A stretch of 45,684 nucleotides of DNA from a virus: the IMG/VR virus record IMGVR_UViG_3300034684_000191, positions 1-45,684 of that record; one strand, 5' to 3'. The number at the start of each line of letters is the position of its first letter. Position 1 is the first letter of the stretch. Positions 13,101 to 45,469 of the stretch are shown in pieces. The notes under the pieces are model-generated. The model was not told the origin of the DNA. It searched no databases and was given only the letters and a program-made list of their open reading frames with translations. Made by a program: the position numbers and the translations under genes.

Positions 13101-13524
13101 TAAACGCGGTGCGACCATCGACGCACTGAAAGACTACGCCAGCATGGAGTTCATTGTCCAGAACCAACCCGACGAGCTGGCCGAAGCCGAGGAACGGTTG
13201 GTGTCCGTTCGCTCTTTCGTTCCCACCGGCATGCCCCGCGCTCATAACCCCCACGCCGGGGAATCTCGGTTGGCGGCGTCGCTGGACGAGATCGACGTTC
13301 TGAAAGAACGATACAGGCGGGCGCTGGAGTACATGGAGTGGTTCCAGCCTGCGTGGGATGCGCTTACCGGCGACGAGCGGTATGTGCTGACGGAGTTTTA
13401 TCTCAACCAGCAGGAGGACGCGGTTTCCAGTATCTGCGCCCACTTCACCATTGAACGGTCATCGGCCTACAACAAAAAGAACCGGGCATTGGCCCGGCTC
13501 GCACTCCTGTTGTATGGGAAGTGA
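13075..13524 (+). CDS. ArpU/sigma-like late-gene regulator
   Basis: This 149-residue protein ends with a sigma-region-4-like helix-turn-helix ('ALTGDERYVLTEFYLNQQED' then 'AVSSICAHFTIERSSAYNKK'). Its middle section 'EIDVLKERYRRALEYMEWFQ' is a helical linker. Proteins of this size and pattern lie just before HNH and terminase genes in many Firmicute phages and are classed with ArpU/RinA-type activators of packaging and lysis genes. The stop codon lies inside the first copy of a duplicated promoter-like element, which suggests the protein acts on it. It overlaps the nuclease gene by 26 bases. Confidence 0.75.
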   Translation: MTIAWIYLDKRGATIDALKDYASMEFIVQNQPDELAEAEERLVSVRSFVPTGMPRAHNPHAGESRLAASLDEIDVLKERYRRALEYMEWFQPAWDALTGDERYVLTEFYLNQQEDAVSSICAHFTIERSSAYNKKNRALARLALLLYGK

Positions 13525-13580
13525 GTAATATCGTGGACGACTTTTCGGTTTGGATGTGGTACACTGGTATTGTCAAACAA
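13521..13580 (+). promoter_or_regulatory. late promoter-like element, copy 1
   Basis: GTGAGTAATATCGTGGACG is followed after one mismatch by CTTTTC and, 39 bases from the repeat start, by ATGTGGTACACT, a -10-like box (TACACT 13560-13565). The gap from GTGGAC to this box is 21 bases, too long for ordinary sigma-70, so activator dependence is likely. A GC-rich hairpin follows (about 13582-13618). Confidence 0.55.
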
Positions 13581-13630
13581 AGCACCCTCGGATCTCTGGT
13601 TCCGGGGGTTTTGCTTTGCCGTAGATGAAA

Positions 13631-13690
13631 GTGAGTAATATCGTGGACGGCTTTTCAGATTTCATGTGATATACTATTATCATCAAAAGA
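13631..13690 (+). promoter_or_regulatory. late promoter-like element, copy 2
   Basis: The same 19-base start as copy 1 recurs exactly 110 bases later. ATGTGATATACT (TATACT 13670-13675) stands at the identical offset of 39 bases. The better -10 box makes this the stronger candidate promoter. It also leads into a hairpin (CGCCCC...GGAGGCG) before the terminator at 13732. Confidence 0.6.
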
Positions 13691-32718: not shown

Positions 32719-35238
32719 ATGGCAGTTGTGCTGACTTTAAACAAACAAGAGCAGTTCACCGGCGAATTTCCGGTGACCCCGCAAACGGGTGCCATGTGGC
32801 GCTTCAATGAGGCGACGCCTATGGTGGTAGACGGTGTGAACTATGTGCTGGATTCGTCCGGCAGAGGCCGCCATTTCGAGGTGAAAAAGTGGTCCGGCAC
32901 CACCGCTGCACTTGTGAACGGGCGGCATGGCCGGTATATCCGCATCAACACCAATAACCCTACTACCGAGCAGACCTACCTATACGCCAAGAACGACGGC
33001 TCCTTCTTTTCCAATCTGGGCGACCGGATCGCTGTGGGCGGCTGGATCAACCCCACCACCTACTCGGTGGGTAACACCTACTGCCCGATTTTCAATACGC
33101 GCGCTGGCCCCGGTCAGCCGCTTTTATATATTTCCCTCATTTCAGGCCGCCCGCGCATGATGCTGTACAACAGCACCGGGGGTTTGATTTGCGACCAGTC
33201 CGAAACGCCTACCATCACCTTCAAAAACAATGGTTGGTATTTTATGGGCAATATCATCGACCTTGTGGCGAACACCACGCAGTATGTCATTGGTGACCGG
33301 AGCACCGGCGAGCTGTGGTTCGGCCCGTTGCGTGCCATCACGGGAACGCTGAATCCAAACTGTGTGGCCGATATCGAGATCGGCCGCCACACCACTACCT
33401 ACTGGTATGCGGGCGGTTTCGACGACTGGTTCTTCGAGACGGAGAGCCAACTCACCGTCGATGATTTGGCGCGGTATTTCAAACAGTCTCTCATAGCCAA
33501 CGGCGGCGATACTTCCGAGAATGTGGATGCAATTTCCCAGCCCGGAAAGGTGGTGCTGCGGCGCTCCGGTACATACCCGGAGTCCGGCGAACTGCTGACC
33601 ATTGCCTCGGAGTATGCCTTGGAGGGCGAGGGCCGGGTGGCCGTTACCTCAGAATACACGCCGGGTGTGACCGCCATTTCGCTGGTGGAAACCGCTACCT
33701 CCTACGATTTCGAGGAATGGTCGGAATGGACTGCTACGGGTAACGAAGGCGCTCTTATGTCGCCGCCCGGCACTTATATCAGATTCCGAGTGACGCTCAC
33801 CACCAGCGACTTCGATTTGACCCCACGGTTGGTGGATATTCAGCTACACGATATCCCGCCGCCTGCTCACCGCAAGAAGCTCGGTTTCGAGCGTCCCATG
33901 GTGATGACCCCTGATGGCCAGTGGGAGGCAGTCCTGGAGCGGGCCTACGACATCATCGTCACCAGCGAGGTCAACGGTTCCGACACGCTGGACTTTAAGC
34001 TGCCCTTTGAGGATGGAAAGCGGCTGTCACTGGAAAACGAGCGCATGGTGCAAGTGGGCGATGAGGTCTACCGCATCCGCACTATCACTGACGAAAAGGC
34101 ATCAGACGGCAGCATCGTGACTTCGGTGTATGCCGAGGCTGCGTTCTATGATCTGACCTACTCTGCGGAGAAGGAACCGCGTGAATTTAACGCTGCCCTG
34201 GCCGACGAACCCATGCAGTGGGCCTTGGAAGGCACGGGCTGGGAAGTTGGCGATGTGAAAGTAAGCACGCTGCGCTCATGGACCTGTGAAGAGAAGAACT
34301 CCCTCGCCATCCTGCGCATGGTGCAATCAATTCACGGCGGCGATCTCGTTTTCGACAATAAAAACCGGCTGGTGCATTTGTATGTGTTCTCGGGCAAGGA
34401 GTCCGGGGCGCTGTTTGCCTACCGAAAGAACCTCAACAACATCAAGCGCGTTGTAGATACCCGCAGCCTGATCACCCGGCTGTACGCCTACAGCAAGGAT
34501 GGCATCAACTTTGCCAGCATCAACGAGGGCAAACCCTATGTGGAGGATTACACCTATACCAGCGAAATCCGGGTGTCCACCCTTGACCTCTCGAATTTCA
34601 CCAATCCCTATCAGATGTTGGAATTCACCCGGATGCGCATGGCTGAATATGGCAAACCTCGTGTTTCTTATGTGCTGTCGGTTATGGACCTCTCGGTGCT
34701 CACCGGCTACGAGCACGAGGATTGGGAACTGGGCGACATCGTGACGGTGGATGACCGCGATCTCGGCCTCACCATCAATACGCGCGTCATCCGCAGACAA
34801 TACAATGTGCAAGAGCCGTGGAAAACGGTGCTGGAGCTCTCCAGCAAGCTGCGGGAGTTGGGCGATTCTTCAAACAGCGCCATTGCCGACCAACTCGACC
34901 AGTCCAATGTCATGTCGCAGGAAATCAAGGATATGGTGCCGTTTAACCTGCTGCGCAACAGCCGCGCTGACAACGGATTCGCCTATTGGACCAACTCCGG
35001 CTTTGAGTTGGAGTCCAGCGGCGTGAGCGGCAATGCCTCCTTCAAGGCGGTGGGTGTGTCGGGCAGCACCAAAAGCATGTATCAGACCATCTATCCCGCC
35101 AATCGCCGCAGCTACACCATTTCGGCGCAGATTGGCTCGGATGATCTTCAAAAAGGCCCCAATGGGCAGGTTGGTATTGAGGTGGTATTCGAATTTGAGG
35201 ACGGGACCACCGAAACGAGGTTTATTGATTTGTATTAA
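32719..35238 (+). CDS. tail-tip/Tal protein with N-terminal LamG-like domain
   Basis: This 839-residue protein has residues 20-260 like a concanavalin/LamG sugar-binding fold ('MWRFNEATPMVVDG', 'GDRIAVGGWINPTTYSVG', 'GGFDDWFFETESQLTVDDLA'). Residues 390-740 match the phage minor structural/Tal family ('SEVNGSDTLDFKLPFEDGKR', 'RTITDEKASDGSIVTSVYAE', 'RVIRRQYNVQEPWKTVLELS'). The C-terminus starts a carbohydrate-binding-like module ('NLLRNSRADNGFAYWTNSGF') that stops abruptly at TAA 35236. The matching rest of that module is encoded in the same frame a few codons later (35254-35448), so the protein appears split. Confidence 0.88.
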   Translation: MAVVLTLNKQEQFTGEFPVTPQTGAMWRFNEATPMVVDGVNYVLDSSGRGRHFEVKKWSGTTAALVNGRHGRYIRINTNNPTTEQTYLYAKNDGSFFSNLGDRIAVGGWINPTTYSVGNTYCPIFNTRAGPGQPLLYISLISGRPRMMLYNSTGGLICDQSETPTITFKNNGWYFMGNIIDLVANTTQYVIGDRSTGELWFGPLRAITGTLNPNCVADIEIGRHTTTYWYAGGFDDWFFETESQLTVDDLARYFKQSLIANGGDTSENVDAISQPGKVVLRRSGTYPESGELLTIASEYALEGEGRVAVTSEYTPGVTAISLVETATSYDFEEWSEWTATGNEGALMSPPGTYIRFRVTLTTSDFDLTPRLVDIQLHDIPPPAHRKKLGFERPMVMTPDGQWEAVLERAYDIIVTSEVNGSDTLDFKLPFEDGKRLSLENERMVQVGDEVYRIRTITDEKASDGSIVTSVYAEAAFYDLTYSAEKEPREFNAALADEPMQWALEGTGWEVGDVKVSTLRSWTCEEKNSLAILRMVQSIHGGDLVFDNKNRLVHLYVFSGKESGALFAYRKNLNNIKRVVDTRSLITRLYAYSKDGINFASINEGKPYVEDYTYTSEIRVSTLDLSNFTNPYQMLEFTRMRMAEYGKPRVSYVLSVMDLSVLTGYEHEDWELGDIVTVDDRDLGLTINTRVIRRQYNVQEPWKTVLELSSKLRELGDSSNSAIADQLDQSNVMSQEIKDMVPFNLLRNSRADNGFAYWTNSGFELESSGVSGNASFKAVGVSGSTKSMYQTIYPANRRSYTISAQIGSDDLQKGPNGQVGIEVVFEFEDGTTETRFIDLY

Positions 35239-35253
35239 GGAAGGAGGCCGCCT

Positions 35254-35448
35254 GTGGCATATTTTCAGCAGGTGGCCCGCAGCGCCTCGCCGCAAGGCTA
35301 TGGCAACGTGCGGGCCATTACCATCCGACTCTGTGTCATCGACTGCACCGGCATGGTGTATTTCACCGATGTAATGTTTCAGGCGGGTTCCATCGCCACC
35401 GGTTGGGTGGGTCATGCGAGCGAAATCCAGTGGACGCTGGATGGGTAA
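35254..35448 (+). CDS. C-terminal module of the Tal protein as a separate ORF
   Basis: This 64-residue protein carries 'VRAITIRLCVIDCTGMVYFT' and 'DVMFQAGSIATGWVGHASEI', which in related tail proteins finishes the carbohydrate-binding module begun at the end of Tal. It lies in the same frame as Tal, separated only by TAA and five codons, and has its own GGAAGGAGG site before a GTG start. It could be made by reinitiation, by readthrough, or be the product of a nonsense mutation. Its core resembles residues 20-55 of the next tail protein (36605-37174). Confidence 0.7.
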   Translation: MAYFQQVARSASPQGYGNVRAITIRLCVIDCTGMVYFTDVMFQAGSIATGWVGHASEIQWTLDG

Positions 35449-35452
35449 ATGG

Positions 35453-35502
35453 ATAGACCCAAACAATAGGTTTGGTTCAAAAAAAGTTTGGGTCTATTTT
35501 TT
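35453..35502 (+). terminator. rho-independent terminator before the HTH cargo gene
   Basis: ATAGACCCAAAC (35453-35464) pairs perfectly with GTTTGGGTCTAT (35486-35497), followed by six Ts. It shields the cargo gene from tail transcription, and would also cut late transcription unless antitermination occurs. Confidence 0.85.
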
Positions 35503-35503
35503 A

Positions 35504-35540
35504 TTGAACCATTGACATTCAACGGTTCAATATGTATAAT
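35504..35540 (+). promoter_or_regulatory. strong sigma-70 promoter with inverted operator for the HTH cargo gene
   Basis: TTGACA (35512-35517), a 17-base spacer and TATAAT (35535-35540) form a consensus promoter. ATTGAACC/GGTTCAAT arms flank the -35 box (TTGAACC 35504-35510, GGTTCAA 35524-35530), and a further GGTTCAA lies at 35474-35480. These are likely operators, perhaps for the HTH protein itself. Confidence 0.85.
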
Positions 35541-35572
35541 GATGGTATAAAATCAAGACTGGAGGACAGAGC

Positions 35573-36538
35573 ATGTCACGGCAATTCGATGAATATATGG
35601 CAGATAAGTTTGAGCTATACGGAGAAGCTCATTCACTGATTGAACCAGGCAGTTTTGAAGAGCTCATAAAAGCAATACAGGTTAAGGATGTTATTCAAAC
35701 GGCAATTAGCAGCTTAATGCACGATGAGGATTCCAGTGGGTGGGACGATTTGCTGCAAACCCAAAACGACTTTATCCATGAGTATCTTAGTTCCCTTGGT
35801 GAGTTCGATAACAGTTTTCTCGTCAACAACATTAACTACATGGCGAAGAAGAGCGATCTCCGTATAGGAGACCTTGAAAAACTTCTTGGTATTAGTGCGG
35901 GATATATTTCCCGTACAGCGAAAGAAAACTCAGCCAAGAAATTAAGTGTTGATGTTGTCTGGAAAATCGCTAAACTTTTTGAGACAGATATCAAGGTATT
36001 GCTTGAAACAGATTTACAGATACCGAATTCCAACACAGAAATGGCTGCGAAATTTCTACAAAAGACATATGGTCAAACTGCGGATGGGACGATTGAATGG
36101 ATCAATAATGGTGGTGTCGAGTGCGAACTTGATGAAAGGATAAAGGGTACAAAATTAGTGACTGAAGATGATGCGGTCACTTTATATCATCCCATGCGTT
36201 TAAGCCGCGATGCAAGGTTCATTCTTGTGGATGACATTTTTACATGCGAAAACATTAACCTCGAAAAAGAGGTGCTTATTATCCCGTTCAGACTTGAGAA
36301 ATCCGATAAGATTAATTATGATTTCATTCTTCGCTGGTCGGAAGATGATGAGAGCAACCCGGACTATGGGAAGAACTATTTTCAAAGAATGTTCAATACG
36401 GTCGACGACCCCTTTGGCGGACTTGATGTTTATGCCAATAATCTGTATCAGCTCATCAAAAACCGTGAGTATGATACAAGGATATCGCCTGAGGTTAAGG
36501 ATATAATCACTGATTACCTTAAAAGTGATACCAACTAA
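35573..36538 (+). CDS. HTH-domain cargo (moron) protein of unknown function
   Basis: This 321-residue protein has an N-terminal helical part (1-85), then an XRE-like helix-turn-helix at about 88-145 ('KKSDLRIGDLEKLLGISAGY' then 'DVVWKIAKLFETDIKVLLE'). A C-terminal domain I do not recognise contains 'VLIIPFRLEKSDKINYDFIL' and 'MFNTVDDPFGGLDVYANNLY'. The gene is much more AT-rich than its neighbours, and has a consensus promoter with repeated TTGAACC sites and terminators on both sides. This is the mark of a moron expressed from the silent prophage, so superinfection immunity, defence or host-gene control are plausible. There is no signal peptide and no nuclease motif. It interrupts the tail module. 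Confidence 0.75.
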   Translation: MSRQFDEYMADKFELYGEAHSLIEPGSFEELIKAIQVKDVIQTAISSLMHDEDSSGWDDLLQTQNDFIHEYLSSLGEFDNSFLVNNINYMAKKSDLRIGDLEKLLGISAGYISRTAKENSAKKLSVDVVWKIAKLFETDIKVLLETDLQIPNSNTEMAAKFLQKTYGQTADGTIEWINNGGVECELDERIKGTKLVTEDDAVTLYHPMRLSRDARFILVDDIFTCENINLEKEVLIIPFRLEKSDKINYDFILRWSEDDESNPDYGKNYFQRMFNTVDDPFGGLDVYANNLYQLIKNREYDTRISPEVKDIITDYLKSDTN

Positions 36539-36555
36539 ATATTACCTATCGTACA

Positions 36556-36582
36556 AAAAGGCCGCTTCGGTGGTCTTTTTTT
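36556..36582 (+). terminator. rho-independent terminator after the HTH cargo gene
   Basis: AAAAGGCCGC pairs with GTGGTCTTTT around a TTCG loop (36566-36569), including two G-U pairs, followed by more Ts. It completes the self-contained cargo cassette. Confidence 0.8.
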
Positions 36583-36604
36583 CTTGTCTTGGAGGTGACG
36601 TGCC

Positions 36605-37174
36605 ATGGTAGATAATTTCATCCGGTTCGTGGAGCCCATCAAGCTCCGCGAAGAAGAAAAGCGTGTGGTGAGCATCACCGTCCGGCTGTTGATCAGCGAT
36701 TGCACCGGCACAATCTACTATACCGACCTGCAGCTTCAAGAAGGCGACCGGCTTACCGGTTACACCCCGCACACCTCTACCATGCTCCGAGACCCCCACG
36801 GTCCGGTCATATGGCGCAACGGGATCATCCGGCACGGGGCTACCATCCTGCTCAATGTCCCCGGACAAACCAGCACCGGCCTCGACTATTATTTATATCC
36901 CTTGGACAGTATGGCCGCTGAAAGCATCCACCTTGCCACCGAAACTGGCTCCCACAAGGCCACCTTCCGCTCGGCGGCCAATGCGGGCGACGAGTTCGCC
37001 CTGCTCGCCTCGGGGCGGCACTGCTTGCGCAATGGAAGCCCTACGCCTAAGTGGGGCTTTTTTCAATACGCGGCGGCCTACGATTCCAAGTACAAGGTGG
37101 AGCTGCAGCAAGGCACCTCGGCCCGGCTGTACGTTGAGTTCCGGGAGATGCAGGAAGGAGAATCGAAGCCATGA
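36605..37174 (+). CDS. tail structural protein, carbohydrate-binding-like
   Basis: This 189-residue protein carries near residues 20-55 'RVVSITVRLLISDCTGTIYY', 'TDLQLQEGDRLTGYTPH', clearly like the module end at 35254-35448, so the two are duplicates or halves of a repeated tail module. The rest ('HGATILLNVPGQTSTGLDYY', 'SHKATFRSAANAGDEFALLA') is beta-rich. It probably links Tal to the fibre. GGAGGTGACG precedes its ATG; it overlaps the fibre gene by 4 bases. Confidence 0.65.
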   Translation: MVDNFIRFVEPIKLREEEKRVVSITVRLLISDCTGTIYYTDLQLQEGDRLTGYTPHTSTMLRDPHGPVIWRNGIIRHGATILLNVPGQTSTGLDYYLYPLDSMAAESIHLATETGSHKATFRSAANAGDEFALLASGRHCLRNGSPTPKWGFFQYAAAYDSKYKVELQQGTSARLYVEFREMQEGESKP

Positions 37175-39630
37175 GCAATTATCTGAAAGGCAAGCGCTGC
37201 ATGGTGTGGGCCTTCATGCAGAATGCCCGGATGTACGAGGCATTTGAGAAATATGGCGACCGTCTCGACACGGTGGGTATTTTCACCTTTGAGGTGGACA
37301 GCACCGGGACCATCACCGAAACCGGCACCCCGATTGCCAATATGATGCCCTACATCAACAAGTGGCCCCACATTAAGTGGATGCTGACTGTGATGAACCA
37401 CGGCTATGCCTCCATTTTCGCAGCCCTTCGGAATAATACGAACGGCGCAAAGACCAAGTTCCTCTCGGAACTCACCCGCATCATACAGAAGTACCCGTGG
37501 TGCGCCGGGGTCGACATCGACCTCGAGCAAGGCGGCGGGTACGAAAACCGGCAGGCGGCGAATGAACTGTTCCGGGATATCTACAACACAGTTAAAACCT
37601 ACAACCGCGCAAAGCTCGTCAACATCTGCCTACCCGGTATGACCGGCGTGCAGGGCTCGGTGGGTGGCGAGAACTGGTGCGTGTACGCCGACCTCAATCC
37701 CTACTGCGACACCGCCGCCATCATGAGCTACGGTATGGCATGGGCGGGCTCCGCGCCCGGCCCGGTGTCGCCCCGAAGCTGGCTGGAGGGCATCTACAAC
37801 TACGCCACGCAGGTCATGACCCCGAGCAAGGTGTACTTGGGCTTTCCGGCCTACGGCTGGGAGTGGCAGATCTTCGACACTCCGGCCAATCAGGGGAAGC
37901 AGTATCGCGGCACCTCCAACACCTACTACGCCGCTGAGATTTGGCAGAAGGGCGGGTACAACTTTGCCTCCCGGCAGCAGTACATCCCGTTCGTTTCCTA
38001 TTGGGACGATTATGATAAGGGGCCGTATATATTGCCTTTCATCTACGACTACATGGAGGGGCAAGATTCGGTTTCGAGAACTGGTCCGCTCATAGGCGAC
38101 ACCTATAACCGCCGCCGTTATCTGACCTGTTACGGCAAGGAACAAAGCAGCTCCTTCGGCACCATATACATCGACCGGGACGGCAAGCCGGACAGCTACA
38201 CTGGCAACATGATCATTGGCGATACCACCGCCGCTGTCGCCGCCAATGGCACGGCGACCTACAATTTCTCGGTACCGGCCACCGGCGTGTATGATGTGGC
38301 GGTGCGCATCGGCTTTCCTTTCTGGGATAAAAACGGCATCAACCTGACGCTGGACGGCAGCGCGGTTTCCTTCAACGAAAACCGGATGTGGTGGCCTTAC
38401 TGGAAGCAGAGCCACTGGCGGGCGCTGGCCACCGGGCGCACGCTGTCGGCGGGCCAACACACCATCGTCATCACGGGCGGCGTCCCCGGTTCGGTGTTTT
38501 ACGGCTTTCGGGTGTGCAACAGCTTTTCGCAGGAGTGTTCGGCGGGCAGCGCCAGCTATTCTCTCAAACCGCGCTACTTTAAGGATGTCAACGGCCAGAT
38601 GCGCGCTCCGGCAGAAGGATTCCGGCTCACCACCGAGGTGCTGCGGCGCAAGCCTGACAGCGCATTGGCGTGGTATGAGGACTTTCGCGATCAGCCGCCG
38701 CTTCAAGATTCTTATTGGACGACGCTTTCCGGCAGTTGGCAGGTGTGGCGCGATCCCGATGATTGGACATCTAACCGGCCCTATTGCCAACTTGAGGGTT
38801 CCGGCCAGCTTGCATGGAAGTACAGCGGCTTTTCCGATGTGCACCTTCGGGCGAGGCTGGCGTTCCCGTCCAATGATGCCGGGCGTGCTGGGGTTTTCAT
38901 AGGAAACCTATTCTGCTGCATCAATATCGACAGCCAGCGTGTGGAGCTCTATCAGGGCAGTACGCTGCTAGGGAGCTGGCAGGGCGAGTATTCACGCACC
39001 TCCGATGCCAACATCCGCATAAATCCCAGCATGTATTTGATTGAAATGCGCAAACGCGGTAATCGTGTGCGGGTTTACTCCGGTTCAAGCAATACACTGC
39101 GCTTTACGGCTACTGTTTCAGCTACCTCTGGGTATTGCGGGTTCCAATCGGACGGTCCAGTCAAATGCGAATTATTGCGGCTGGGCGATGCCTGGACATA
39201 CGAACCCTATGAGGCGTTTGATGTGCGGATGCCGGACGGCACAACCAAATCCTATGGCCGGATTGCCCGCAGTGACGTAACATGGGACAACGAGTTTCAA
39301 GTATTCACGCTTTCCTCAGATGTGGAGGAACTATCCACGCGCAGCGAAGAAATCTCCATGGACTATGATTTCTATCACTCGGACGCAATCCGGGTAGCTT
39401 GTGGTGGCAATTATACCGCTGCTGTAATTCCAAGGGATATCAATGTCTGGATATCCCGGCTGTTCTTTGGGGATGCGGACGGCTTCTGTATTGTCTATTA
39501 TCAGGACGTGGACAGCATGGTGTATTGGGCGAATCAAGCAGCCTATCGCTGGGGGCTACGGGGTGTGGCGATCTGGTCGCTGGGACAGGAGGATATGCGG
39601 CTCTGGGAACACATGCCCAAACAAATATAA
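37171..39630 (+). CDS. GH18-like tail fibre/glycoside hydrolase with an internal domain insertion
   Basis: This 819-residue protein has residues 1-300 as a glycoside hydrolase 18 barrel: 'VWAFMQNARMYEAFEKYGDR', the catalytic strand 'CAGVDIDLEQ' (D115, D117, E119 as acid), 'TAAIMSYGMAWAG' and 'PSKVYLGFPAYGWEW'. The barrel does not finish there. A stretch of about 470 residues follows, with two beta-sandwich-like sugar-binding modules ('ATYNFSVPATGVYDVAVRIG' and 'HLRARLAFPSNDAGRAGVFI'). The last 50 residues, 'MVYWANQAAYRWGLRGVAIW' then 'SLGQEDMRLWEHMP', look like the missing final GH18 strand and helix. It probably binds and trims cell-wall glycans at the host surface. Confidence 0.82.
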   Translation: MSNYLKGKRCMVWAFMQNARMYEAFEKYGDRLDTVGIFTFEVDSTGTITETGTPIANMMPYINKWPHIKWMLTVMNHGYASIFAALRNNTNGAKTKFLSELTRIIQKYPWCAGVDIDLEQGGGYENRQAANELFRDIYNTVKTYNRAKLVNICLPGMTGVQGSVGGENWCVYADLNPYCDTAAIMSYGMAWAGSAPGPVSPRSWLEGIYNYATQVMTPSKVYLGFPAYGWEWQIFDTPANQGKQYRGTSNTYYAAEIWQKGGYNFASRQQYIPFVSYWDDYDKGPYILPFIYDYMEGQDSVSRTGPLIGDTYNRRRYLTCYGKEQSSSFGTIYIDRDGKPDSYTGNMIIGDTTAAVAANGTATYNFSVPATGVYDVAVRIGFPFWDKNGINLTLDGSAVSFNENRMWWPYWKQSHWRALATGRTLSAGQHTIVITGGVPGSVFYGFRVCNSFSQECSAGSASYSLKPRYFKDVNGQMRAPAEGFRLTTEVLRRKPDSALAWYEDFRDQPPLQDSYWTTLSGSWQVWRDPDDWTSNRPYCQLEGSGQLAWKYSGFSDVHLRARLAFPSNDAGRAGVFIGNLFCCINIDSQRVELYQGSTLLGSWQGEYSRTSDANIRINPSMYLIEMRKRGNRVRVYSGSSNTLRFTATVSATSGYCGFQSDGPVKCELLRLGDAWTYEPYEAFDVRMPDGTTKSYGRIARSDVTWDNEFQVFTLSSDVEELSTRSEEISMDYDFYHSDAIRVACGGNYTAAVIPRDINVWISRLFFGDADGFCIVYYQDVDSMVYWANQAAYRWGLRGVAIWSLGQEDMRLWEHMPKQI

Positions 39631-41837: not shown

Positions 41838-41858
41838 ATCCCCATGGAGGTGATTGCC

Positions 41859-42296
41859 ATGACAGGCGAACAAAAACAGCGCATACAGGATATGCGGCTT
41901 CAGGGGACGACTTACTCACAGATTGCTGAAACGCTCAGCCTTTCGGTGAACACGGTTAAGTCGTTCTGCCGCAGGAATTCCATTAATGCCTGCAACGCTT
42001 CCAACGATACGGGGAACGAAGATAACAAAGAAACATGCAAACAATGCGGCAATCGATTGGTGCAGCTCGCAAAGGGAAAAACCAGAACCTTCTGCAGTGA
42101 CCGGTGCCGATATGCTTGGTGGAATAGCAACCGACACCAGCCGAACCGGAAAGCCTCGCACCGGCTGATCTGTGCTTATTGCGGCAAGGAGTTTATCAGC
42201 TACGGCAATCCGAGCCGTAAATACTGCAGCCACTCCTGCTATACTTCCCATCGTTTTGACCGGAGTCCGGCTGGCAAAGAGGCGGTGCGCTTATGA
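41859..42296 (+). CDS. HTH and zinc-finger protein ahead of the recombinases
   Basis: This 145-residue protein has residues 1-45 as a sigma-region-4-like helix-turn-helix ('EQKQRIQDMRLQGTTYSQIA', 'ETLSLSVNTVKSFCRRNSI'). Two treble-clef-like zinc fingers follow ('CKQCGNRL' with 'TFCSDRCRYAWW', 'ICAYCGKEF' with 'KYCSHSCYTSH'). Such proteins regularly precede SHOCT-like and serine recombinase genes on Firmicute mobile elements and may control or assist recombination. The ATG at 41859 follows GGAGGTGATT by 8 bases; ATG 41844 lies upstream of that site. It is coupled to the next gene by ATGA. Confidence 0.75.
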   Translation: MTGEQKQRIQDMRLQGTTYSQIAETLSLSVNTVKSFCRRNSINACNASNDTGNEDNKETCKQCGNRLVQLAKGKTRTFCSDRCRYAWWNSNRHQPNRKASHRLICAYCGKEFISYGNPSRKYCSHSCYTSHRFDRSPAGKEAVRL

Positions 42297-42536: not shown

Positions 42537-43889
42537 ATGCGAGTGATAACGAAACTCGAACCCATAGCGCCGCCTATGCCAAGGCGAAAACGCGTGGCTG
42601 CTTATGCTCGCGTTTCAAGCGGAAAAGATGCGATGCTCCACTCATTGTCCGCTCAGGTCAGTTATTACAGCGACTATATCCAGCGGCACGGCGAATGGGA
42701 GTATGTCGGCGTATATGCCGATGAAGCGTTTACCGGTACAAAGGATGACAGACCGGAGTTTCAGCGGTTGGTAAACGACTGTAGAAACGGAGAAATCGAC
42801 ATGGTCATTACCAAGTCCATCGCAAGGTTTGCGCGTAATACGGTGACCATGCTGGAAATCGTTCGAGAGCTAAAGCTGCTCAGTATCGACGTCTACTTTG
42901 AAAAAGAGAATATTCACTCTCTCAGCGGGGATGGCGAGTTAATGCTCACCATCCTCGCTTCTTACGCACAGGAGGAAAGCCGCTCAGTTTCTGAAAACTG
43001 TAAATGGCGAATCAGAAAACGCTTTGCCCAAGGCGAACTGGTCAGCCTGCGTTTTATGTTTGGTTACCGCATTGAAAAAGGCGAGGTAGAAGTTGACCCG
43101 GAGACGGCGGATATCGTTCGGATGATTTTTGAGGACTATATCGGCGGTATGGGTGGAAGCTTGATTGCCAGAAAGTTGCGTGAGATGGGCGTACCTGCCC
43201 TGCGTGGCGGGACTTGGAACGCAGAGCGTGTGGTGGCGATTATTAAGAATGAAAAATATACCGGAAACGCGCTTTTGCAGAAAAAATATGTAGCTGACCA
43301 CCTGGCGAAAAAGGAGGTCTGGAATAAGGGGCGGCTTCCGCAGTATTATGCTGAGGATACACATCCCGCCATCATCGATATGGAAACCTTTGAGATGGCG
43401 CAGGAAATTATGGAGCGACGCAGGAGCCGGTTTGGGAACAAAAAAGGGGTAACGCCCAAAAGCTACCCTTTCACCGGAAAAATCGTCTGCGAAGGTTGCG
43501 GAAAGAACTACAAACGGAAGGTCGCCGGGGACAAACCGTACTGGCAATGCTCCACCTTCCTTCAAGAAGGCAAGGATTGCTGCCCCGCCAAGCAAATTCC
43601 CGAGGATATCCTCCATACAGTGACCGCAGAAGTTCTCGGGCTTATGGATTTTGAAGCTGAGACGTTTACAGATCGTATTGCCGGGATACGGGTACCGGAA
43701 GCAAACAAGTTAGTGTTCGTATTCCGCGACGGGCATTTGACGGAGCAGGTCTGGCACGATCGTTCCCGTGCCGATAGCTGGACGGAGGAAATGAAGCAAA
43801 TTGCCCGTGACCGTATGACGCCCGAATTGCGCGAGGCTTCCCGCCAGCGCATGCATGAAATTAATAGGAACAGGAGGAAGCGCATATGA
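42537..43889 (+). CDS. large serine recombinase 1
   Basis: This 450-residue protein has an N-terminal resolvase domain with 'VAAYARVSSGKDAMLHSLSA' (Ser27 the nucleophile) and 'ITKSIARFARNTVTMLEIVR'. A recombinase domain follows ('FGYRIEKGEVEVDPETADIV'), then the zinc ribbon 'IVCEGCGKNYKRKV' with 'YWQCSTFLQEGKDCCPAKQI'. The C-terminus is short, without the long coiled coil of the second enzyme. These enzymes cut and join attachment sites. GGAGG lies 8 bases upstream. The stop overlaps the second recombinase by 4 bases, so both are made together. Confidence 0.92.
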   Translation: MRVITKLEPIAPPMPRRKRVAAYARVSSGKDAMLHSLSAQVSYYSDYIQRHGEWEYVGVYADEAFTGTKDDRPEFQRLVNDCRNGEIDMVITKSIARFARNTVTMLEIVRELKLLSIDVYFEKENIHSLSGDGELMLTILASYAQEESRSVSENCKWRIRKRFAQGELVSLRFMFGYRIEKGEVEVDPETADIVRMIFEDYIGGMGGSLIARKLREMGVPALRGGTWNAERVVAIIKNEKYTGNALLQKKYVADHLAKKEVWNKGRLPQYYAEDTHPAIIDMETFEMAQEIMERRRSRFGNKKGVTPKSYPFTGKIVCEGCGKNYKRKVAGDKPYWQCSTFLQEGKDCCPAKQIPEDILHTVTAEVLGLMDFEAETFTDRIAGIRVPEANKLVFVFRDGHLTEQVWHDRSRADSWTEEMKQIARDRMTPELREASRQRMHEINRNRRKRI

Positions 43890-45469
43890 GTCAGGCACGG
43901 GTTACGGTAATACCGCCAAGGTTAAATTTGCAACTGGTTCCGTTTAGCACGGAATATGTGAGAAAGCGTGTGGCTGCCTATGCGCGTGTTTCCACCGATA
44001 CCGAGGAGCAGCTTTCCAGCTACGAGGCGCAGGTTGACCATTATACCCGCCATATACAGGCAAACGATGAATGGGAATTCGTGAAGGTCTACACCGATGA
44101 GGGTATCTCAGCGACCTCCACCGCCAAACGGGACGGCTTCAAGCAGATGGTACAGGATGCGCTGGACGGCAAAATCAACCTCATCATCACAAAGTCGGTG
44201 AGCCGGTTTGCCCGAAACACGGTGGACAGTTTGACCACCGTCCGGCAGCTAAAGGAAAAAGGTGTGGAGGTTTATTTCGAGAAAGAAAATATCTACACGC
44301 TGGACAGCAAGGGCGAGCTACTCATCACCATCATGTCGTCGCTGGCACAGGAAGAAAGCCGCTCCATTTCAGAAAACGTTACATGGGGGCAGCGTAAGCG
44401 GATGCAGGACGGCAAAGTCACCCTTCCATACAAACGCTTCCTCGGTTACGAAAAAGGTGAGGACGGTCTGCCAAAGATTGTGGAATCCGAGGCAGTCACT
44501 GTCCGGATGATTTACAGGCTGTTCCTCGAAGGGAAAACGCCTTCATGGATTGCAAAGCATCTGACCGAGGTAGGCATTCTGACGCCAGCGCGTAAAACAG
44601 TCTGGCAGTCCACCACTGTTCTCAGTATTCTGCAAAACGAGAAATACAAGGGCGATGCGATTCTGCAAAAGACATTCTGCGTGGATTTTCTCACAAAAAA
44701 GATGAAGGTAAACGAGGGCGAAGTTCCACAGTATTATGTAGAAAACAGTCATCCGGCTATCGTCACGCCGGAGACCTTCGATATGGTGCAGCACGAACTC
44801 AGCCAGCGCAAAGACAACCGGGGATACAAAGCCAGCGACAGCCCGTTCTCCGGCAAAGTTATCTGCGGCGAGTGCGGAGGGACTTACGGCTCGAAGGTCT
44901 GGCATTCCACCAGCAAATATCGCCGCACCGTTTGGCAGTGCAACCATAAATACAAAGGCAAAAAGTGCAGCACGCCGCACCTCTATGAAACCGCACTGCA
45001 GAAAGCTTTTGTGGAGGCGTTCAATCAGCTCATTGAAAATAAGGACGAGGTTTTACAGGATTATGAAGCTGTGATTTTGACGCTGACCGATACCTCCTCC
45101 CTTGAAAAAAGACAAGCGGAGCTAAAAAGCGAATATGATATCGTCATGGAACTTATGCGAAAAAGCGTGGAAGAAAACGCCCGCACCGTTCTCGACCAAA
45201 ATGAGTACAACCAGCGATATACCGCTTTGATGGAACGCTACGAGGCCGCGCAAACCGGCATTGCTGACATCAACGATAAAATGCTGGAGCGCACCGCCAA
45301 GCGGGAGAAGATAACACGCTTTCTTGATAATATGAAATGCCACGATAAGCTGCTTACCGAGTTTGATGAAAAACTCTGGCTTGCCACCGTCGATTCGGTG
45401 ACTGTCCACTCCGAAAGCGAAATGACAGTTACCTTTAAGGACGGCAGCGAGGTCACGGTGGAGATATAG
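43886..45469 (+). CDS. large serine recombinase 2 (likely the main integrase)
   Basis: This 527-residue protein has a resolvase domain 'RVAAYARVSTDTEEQLSSYE' (Ser36) and 'ITKSVSRFARNTVDSLTTVR', a recombinase domain 'VESEAVTVRMIYRLFLEGKT', and the zinc ribbon 'KVICGECGGTYGSKVWHS' with 'WQCNHKYKGKKCSTPH'. The C-terminal coiled coil (about 395-480, 'KRQAELKSEYDIVMELMRKS') matches the control arm that large serine integrases use for direction. Its position at the element's edge, before a terminator, fits integrase next to an attachment site. Both recombinases look intact. Confidence 0.93.
   Translation: MSQARVTVIPPRLNLQLVPFSTEYVRKRVAAYARVSTDTEEQLSSYEAQVDHYTRHIQANDEWEFVKVYTDEGISATSTAKRDGFKQMVQDALDGKINLIITKSVSRFARNTVDSLTTVRQLKEKGVEVYFEKENIYTLDSKGELLITIMSSLAQEESRSISENVTWGQRKRMQDGKVTLPYKRFLGYEKGEDGLPKIVESEAVTVRMIYRLFLEGKTPSWIAKHLTEVGILTPARKTVWQSTTVLSILQNEKYKGDAILQKTFCVDFLTKKMKVNEGEVPQYYVENSHPAIVTPETFDMVQHELSQRKDNRGYKASDSPFSGKVICGECGGTYGSKVWHSTSKYRRTVWQCNHKYKGKKCSTPHLYETALQKAFVEAFNQLIENKDEVLQDYEAVILTLTDTSSLEKRQAELKSEYDIVMELMRKSVEENARTVLDQNEYNQRYTALMERYEAAQTGIADINDKMLERTAKREKITRFLDNMKCHDKLLTEFDEKLWLATVDSVTVHSESEMTVTFKDGSEVTVEI

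Follow-up and report, generated by a model that had tools for sequence, protein, structure and literature searches.

A Moron in the Tail Operon of a Clostridia Phage Encodes a Predicted Autorepressed Early-Operon-Type Regulator That May Repress Incoming Phages in Trans

Introduction

Morons are usually single genes with their own promoter and terminator, located between genes that are adjacent in related phages (PMC4378225). A moron-borne defence is known for Pseudomonas phage JBD26, whose Tab protein, encoded on the minus strand, blocks virion assembly (PMC10884400). In the Cluster A mycobacteriophages, superinfection immunity is based on operators and a repressor that each phage encodes as its own immunity gene (PMC6550527).

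The locus described here lies in a viral DNA stretch of 45,684 nt (the window, meaning the whole stretch that was analysed) and encodes a 321-residue protein, P0001. The P0001 unit resembles the described morons in its insertion site, its own promoter and terminator, and its deviating base composition, and it differs from them in carrying a phage-type, apparently autorepressed early regulator together with its operator, plus an additional upstream terminator (PMC4378225). Like Tab, P0001 is encoded by a single gene that has its own promoter and lies in the late operon region; unlike Tab, which blocks virion assembly, it is a predicted DNA-binding repressor with an operator-defined target and a possible role in defence (PMC10884400). 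P0001 is also predicted to bind matching operators of an incoming phage, as the Cluster A repressors do, whereas its family is native to other phages and its carrier shows no operators other than that of the P0001 gene itself (PMC6550527). These comparisons are meant as likeness only, and membership in the superinfection immunity (PMC6550527) or defence-moron (PMC10884400) class is not claimed. The literature searched contained no precedent for a moron that consists of a foreign repressor taken up by a phage, which does not prove that there is none. We tentatively propose, with a confidence that falls a little short of even, that the unit is a moron with an autorepressed early-operon-type regulator, which would repress incoming operator-bearing phages in trans.

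Results and Discussion

Insertion of a Single-Gene Unit between Tail Genes

The inserted unit spans positions 35449-36604 (plus strand), from the stop codon of a 64-aa tail ORF (35254-35448, plus) to the start codon of a gene for a 189-aa tail protein (36605-37174, plus). In seven relatives, namely six contigs (L009-L014) and the complete 64.8-kb genome NatCom_35866, this 1.16-kb, one-gene insert is missing at the same site, and the flanking orthologues are adjacent and 51-67% identical. The 64-aa ORF shares 61-63% identity with its orthologues in these relatives and the 189-aa protein 51-56% with its own. The genes for the 839-aa, 64-aa, 189-aa, and 819-aa tail proteins are consecutive in all six contigs, and the two small ORFs either overlap, as TAATG in L009 and L010, or lie approximately 10 bp apart. 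NatCom_35866 has the same tail order with 8 bp between them, and for nearly all of the window's late genes that were tested it has an orthologue, with the gene order kept, P0001 being the exception. Because the seven relatives have the same tail operon without P0001, the unit is an insertion (moron) in the window phage, located between otherwise adjacent genes and furnished with a predicted promoter and terminators and a deviating composition. An earlier note on this DNA had proposed such an autonomous cargo gene in the tail operon, which agrees with this comparison. Its description of the flanks as duplicated tail modules applies only in part: the 64-aa and 189-aa ORFs have a stretch of 39 residues in common (46% identity), but the two tail proteins of approximately 820-840 aa fall in different PHROGs and are not duplicates. 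Record L039, which starts at window position 35468 inside the upstream hairpin, was considered as a variant of the site and rejected; it is 100% identical throughout, pointing to an assembly break.

The P0001 gene (35573-36538, plus) has a G+C content of 40.0%, compared with 53.7% for the whole window, and a GC3 of 41.9% versus 71-74% in the adjoining tail genes, so that its reported AT-richness is evident. It is preceded by a Shine-Dalgarno sequence, GGAGG (35561-35565, plus), and by a sigma-70 promoter, TTGACA-17-TATAAT (35512-35540, plus), which matches the consensus at 12 of 12 positions and is the sole perfect one within the scanned 5 kb (33500-38500). An intrinsic terminator with a 12-bp stem, a 21-nt loop, and a U-run lies upstream (35453-35502, plus). 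Its hairpin (35453-35497) has a predicted energy of −19.4 kcal/mol and a z-score of −4.1, which was equalled by 0 of 200 shuffled sequences. The downstream terminator (36555-36585, plus) consists of a hairpin at 36555-36580 (−13.3 kcal/mol, z −3.3) followed by a U-run. The consensus promoter and the flanking terminators recognised in the earlier note were thus recovered, the latter as predicted hairpins with U-runs on both sides. At the new right border of the insert, the downstream 189-aa gene has a good Shine-Dalgarno sequence, GGAGGTGA (36591-36598, plus). If late transcription did not pass through them, both terminators would be polar on the genes for tail, lysis, and recombinase functions; the late genes located downstream require antitermination, read-through, or an undetected promoter.

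Domain Structure of P0001

P0001 was divided into an N-terminal helical region (residues ~28-75), a helix-turn-helix (HTH) domain (80-150), and a C-terminal β-sheet domain with flanking helices (~154-321). Residues 86-145 gave a weak match to the Pfam families HTH_3 and HTH_26, of which the HTH_3 score (16.8 bits) is under the 23-bit cut-off. A homologue in a Clostridiales genome (L003) passes this cut-off with 24.5 bits, and P0001 was counted as an HTH_3 member on the basis of this match and its SinR fold (Z 9.4). The DNA-binding domains of SinR, ImmR, and P22 c2 (PDB 3qq6, 7t8i, and 3jxb) share the HTH fold of residues 80-150, with Z-scores of 8.4-9.4 and rmsd values of 1.9-2.2 over 64-69 residues, at a sequence identity of just 14-22%. 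This is consistent with the XRE-like domain that had been placed in the middle of the protein. Unlike these three proteins, the P0001 family has an extra N-terminal helical region and a C-terminal β-domain for which no usable match was obtained. CBASS CapH was examined as a candidate and rejected, since the match to capH is weak (E 1.7e-4) and limited to the HTH (residues 86-164), and the neighbouring genes are tail genes rather than CapP and a cyclase operon.

The full-length model of P0001 was of moderate quality (pLDDT 76, pTM 0.48), while the C-terminal domain modelled alone was good (pLDDT 84, pTM 0.76). A structure search with this C-terminal model gave no usable match, the best being a VIA Z-score of 4.9 (cystatins), and no Foldseek hit had an E-value below 0.2. 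None of the libraries Pfam, PHROGs, NCBIfam, and PADLOC contains a full-length model of the P0001 family. The C-terminal domain, described earlier as unrecognised, is hence still without a library or structural counterpart. No S24 self-cleavage domain or other known CI C-terminal domain was detected in P0001 by scans against Pfam, NCBIfam, and PHROGs. Many CI-type repressors have no S24-type C-terminal domain, and its lack rules out the S24 type only.

A Putative Autoregulatory Operator

A dyad, TTGAACC-13-GGTTCAA (35504-35530), encloses the −35 box of the P0001 promoter. Its arms at 35504 and 35524 are 14 nt each, 93% complementary, and flank this box. A third half-site, GGTTCAA (35474-35480, minus), is located 30 bp upstream of the dyad, a position (29-31 bp) that is maintained in 7 of 10 relatives, and a fourth, TTGAACC (35640-35646, plus), lies within the coding sequence, is not found in the relatives, and is probably incidental. 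The insert accordingly holds four half-sites where ~0.2 are expected, three upstream (35474, 35504, and 35524) and one in the coding sequence (35640), compared with the three sites of the earlier note. Over the whole window, TTGAACC was found 6 times against 6.05 expected, and the two occurrences outside the insert (27322 and 39082) are unremarkable. No second operator dyad was found in the 45.7-kb window, whose sole dyad is at the promoter of P0001 itself.

The same or a near-identical operator is present at the own promoter of 10 homologues, which belong to other phages and one mobile element. Alignment of their upstream regions gave a common arrangement, in which GGTTCAA is followed after 30 bp (29-31) by TTGAACC-13-GGTTCAA, with the spacer starting near the −35 box. 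The dyad, the 20-bp half-site spacing, and the embedded TTGACA are kept in the homologues, apart from a right arm that is imperfect in L003. As to the third half-site, it is displaced in L003, cannot be recognised in L021, and differs by one base in L035. In L018, both arms of the dyad are altered together (TTGTACC...GGTACAA). The 20- and 30-bp spacings would place the half-sites on the same face of the helix.

Operator searches covered 2.9 million viral contigs (IMG/VR). A blind search with the dyad plus the −35 box returned 11 contigs, and a family homologue was located immediately downstream in all 11; six of them had been missed earlier by protein-pattern searches. The operator of this family is so conserved that DNA alone finds the family. 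A looser search without the −35 box gave 43 further contigs, in which every site (43/43) falls in an open coding frame and neither a −35 box nor a family homologue was found at the locus. Many of these sites apparently encode one recurring motif, judged by eye to be methyltransferase-like LEPF-GSGST. Further target promoters elsewhere were hence rejected as an explanation of these 43 sites. Each phage record has one dyad, which is at the family gene's own promoter, and in both the window and the homologues the dyad overlaps that promoter. These observations argue for the dyad as a dedicated autoregulatory operator and for P0001 as a member of an autorepressed regulator family. The dyad is read as a repressor operator from its position only, which favors repression over activation.

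Homologues, Native Context, and Alternative Roles

Ten distinct, near full-length homologues with 43-55% identity to P0001 were collected, one from the Clostridiales genome L003 and the rest from IMG/VR contigs. Phages of the Heliusvirales encode distant relatives, in which the similarity lies mostly in the HTH and extends only slightly into the C-terminal part. Besides L003, no full-length homologue was found in the genomes of its order (188), class (391), or phylum (398), nor was any P0001 homologue found in a plasmid collection. The kin of P0001 are phage early-operon genes, and the signs of a known chromosomal regulator captured by chance, against which the earlier note had cautioned, were not seen.

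In L018 and L020, the top-scoring promoter match on the plus strand is that of the regulator, and it is separated from the replication genes by no more than a single weak terminator-like site (L018, 6538). Further downstream in the native copies examined are genes that we take from their translations to be DUF2800/DUF2815-like and DNA polymerase genes. From this arrangement, the native family copies appear to head the early/replication operon of another Clostridia-type phage group. A small ORF of ~58-72 aa follows the native phage copies and is absent at the window and L003 copies. One type of it (~58-69 aa, RPIRNLHSDK...-like) overlaps or directly follows the regulator in L018 (5951-6160), L019, L020, L021, L035, L036, and L042; the L018 ORF has no PHROG match, and in L038 and L043 the small ORF after the regulator is of another kind. 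Genes for 627-aa proteins were observed upstream of the regulator in L018 (2934-4817, phrog_4031) and L007 (3574-5457). The L018 protein contains an ImmA-like region and an HTH, and phrog_4031 has no function assigned. A short palindrome, CGGACAT...GTGTCCG, follows these 627-aa genes and also occurs at L020, L035, L036, and L042.

Autorepressed HTH proteins are commonly antitoxins, and a member of the same family, A0A8S5MN69 of Siphoviridae sp. ct89Z21 (61% identity over 323 alignment columns), is named 'Protein HipA' in BFVD, which would suit P0001 as the antitoxin-type regulator of a toxin-antitoxin pair. This role is nevertheless extremely improbable, as the insert holds a single gene without a toxin partner, the partner ORF of the native copies is absent here, and neither Pfam nor NCBIfam gave a HipA match for P0001. 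The name of A0A8S5MN69 is probably a transferred annotation. A HipBA toxin-antitoxin system was likewise rejected, with no HipA kinase match and no toxin gene adjacent in the single-gene insert.

The location of P0001 in the late operon, the third half-site within the hairpin of the upstream terminator, and the early lytic operon to which native family copies belong would also fit a regulator that acts mainly after induction and tunes late transcription, for example, via this half-site-bearing terminator. We regard such a lytic-cycle role as improbable; a perfect sigma-70 promoter should function in any state, and the overlap is peculiar to the window. The half-site is inside the terminator loop (35453-35502) in the window copy, whereas in the native copies that have this half-site it lies downstream of the terminator and not in the loop.

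The immunity function deserves separate attention, since the earlier note had suggested that P0001 may be the true immunity repressor, there being no CI-like gene elsewhere. P0001 is indeed the sole HTH_3-type protein found in the window, and two large serine recombinases indicate that the phage is probably temperate. The window also gave no other CI-like and no ImmA match. As the window is a fragment of a larger genome, and thus incomplete, this absence is uninformative and the argument fails. In the complete relative NatCom_35866 (64.8 kb), the part that matches the window is flanked by ~20 kb on the left and 6.5 kb on the right, and outside this part there are minus-strand genes that include an annotated excisionase/transcriptional regulator. 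Moreover, the native homologues coexist with separate CI-type XRE and ImmA proteins: an XRE repressor and an ImmA-type protease are encoded on the opposite strand in G571 and G574, and additional HTH_3 genes occur in G565 and other carriers. The syntenic relatives are without P0001 at this site, and the only dyad in these 45.7 kb of an incomplete genome belongs to the P0001 promoter. P0001 is probably not the immunity repressor, and its origin as the window phage's own CI-type repressor, moved to the tail operon, is very improbable.

Predicted Action in Trans

The reading that we tentatively favor is repression of incoming phages in trans. A P0001 dimer would bind the TTGAACC/GGTTCAA dyad, cover the −35 box and spacer, and block RNA polymerase, and cooperativity may come from the third half-site, which lies on the same face of the DNA 30 bp farther upstream. 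Self-repression would keep P0001 low and constant when expressed from the prophage. When a phage with the same type of operator enters, P0001 could pre-occupy its early promoter and stop its replication genes, amounting to a heterotypic, operator-matched immunity. All 11 family proteins share the conserved segment GYISRT[A/V]K, and for this reason P0001 should be able to read the operators of other phages. Comparison of the sequences establishes that the unit was inserted, that P0001 is homologous to regulators of phage early operons, and that the putative operator around the −35 box is conserved; lysogenic expression and a defence-moron role of P0001 are plausible. A useful effect in trans, of which we are less sure, is suggested because the window has no other operator and promoter-placed operators were found only before the family's own genes. 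In its fullest form, the early autorepressor of a rival group would have been acquired along with its operator and terminators, and the lysogen would make just enough of it to silence the rival's early promoter, with self-limiting expression; this is possible, though we consider it doubtful. The native gene resides inside an early operon, and its function may be a Cro-like feedback that fails to block infection.

The absence of a second operator dyad in the window is also compatible with a passenger or host-directed regulator, which was captured with its operator and is expressed and autorepressed, and whose selected effect is on host genes or does not exist. The C-terminal domain matches no known fold or function, which leaves room for this alternative in the window phage, a phage of gut-type Clostridia. 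It is somewhat unlikely, since the ORF is intact with its family-conserved residues, promoter, operator, and both terminators retained, and the other solo copy, in L003, also retains the operator and adjoins defence genes. The gene tree places the window copy, without strong support, among the early-operon copies, whereas L003 groups with the L038 and L043 copies with support; by this placement, the two solo copies appear to have been captured separately.

Repression in trans, if true, would mean that a single mobile gene can carry heterotypic immunity from one phage to another, and that the blocked phages are predictable from a 27-bp site. At L003 (8001-13861), the solo regulator adjoins genes for AbiTii, Schlafen/AlbA_2, and DUF4062 proteins, with relaxase- and integrase-like genes alongside, and this region of a mobilisable element is a candidate defence island. 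Its position next to AbiTii and defence-type genes is suggestive only as a hint of a defence role, and it would be a second instance of stolen-regulator immunity.

Other Features of the Window

The two large serine recombinases (450 and 527 aa) are encoded by adjacent genes at 42537-45469 and are paired in NatCom_35866 too. Between the endolysin and the recombinases, a 150-aa HTH-type protein (41844-42296; phrog_2308, function not assigned) is encoded, which is also conserved in NatCom_35866. No Rfam family, tRNA, or tmRNA was found in the window. The early region encodes a DUF3825 protein (865-1713; phrog_11623, function not assigned). A 47-bp direct repeat with 85% identity was observed at 13519-13565 and 13629-13675, the two copies being 110 bp apart.
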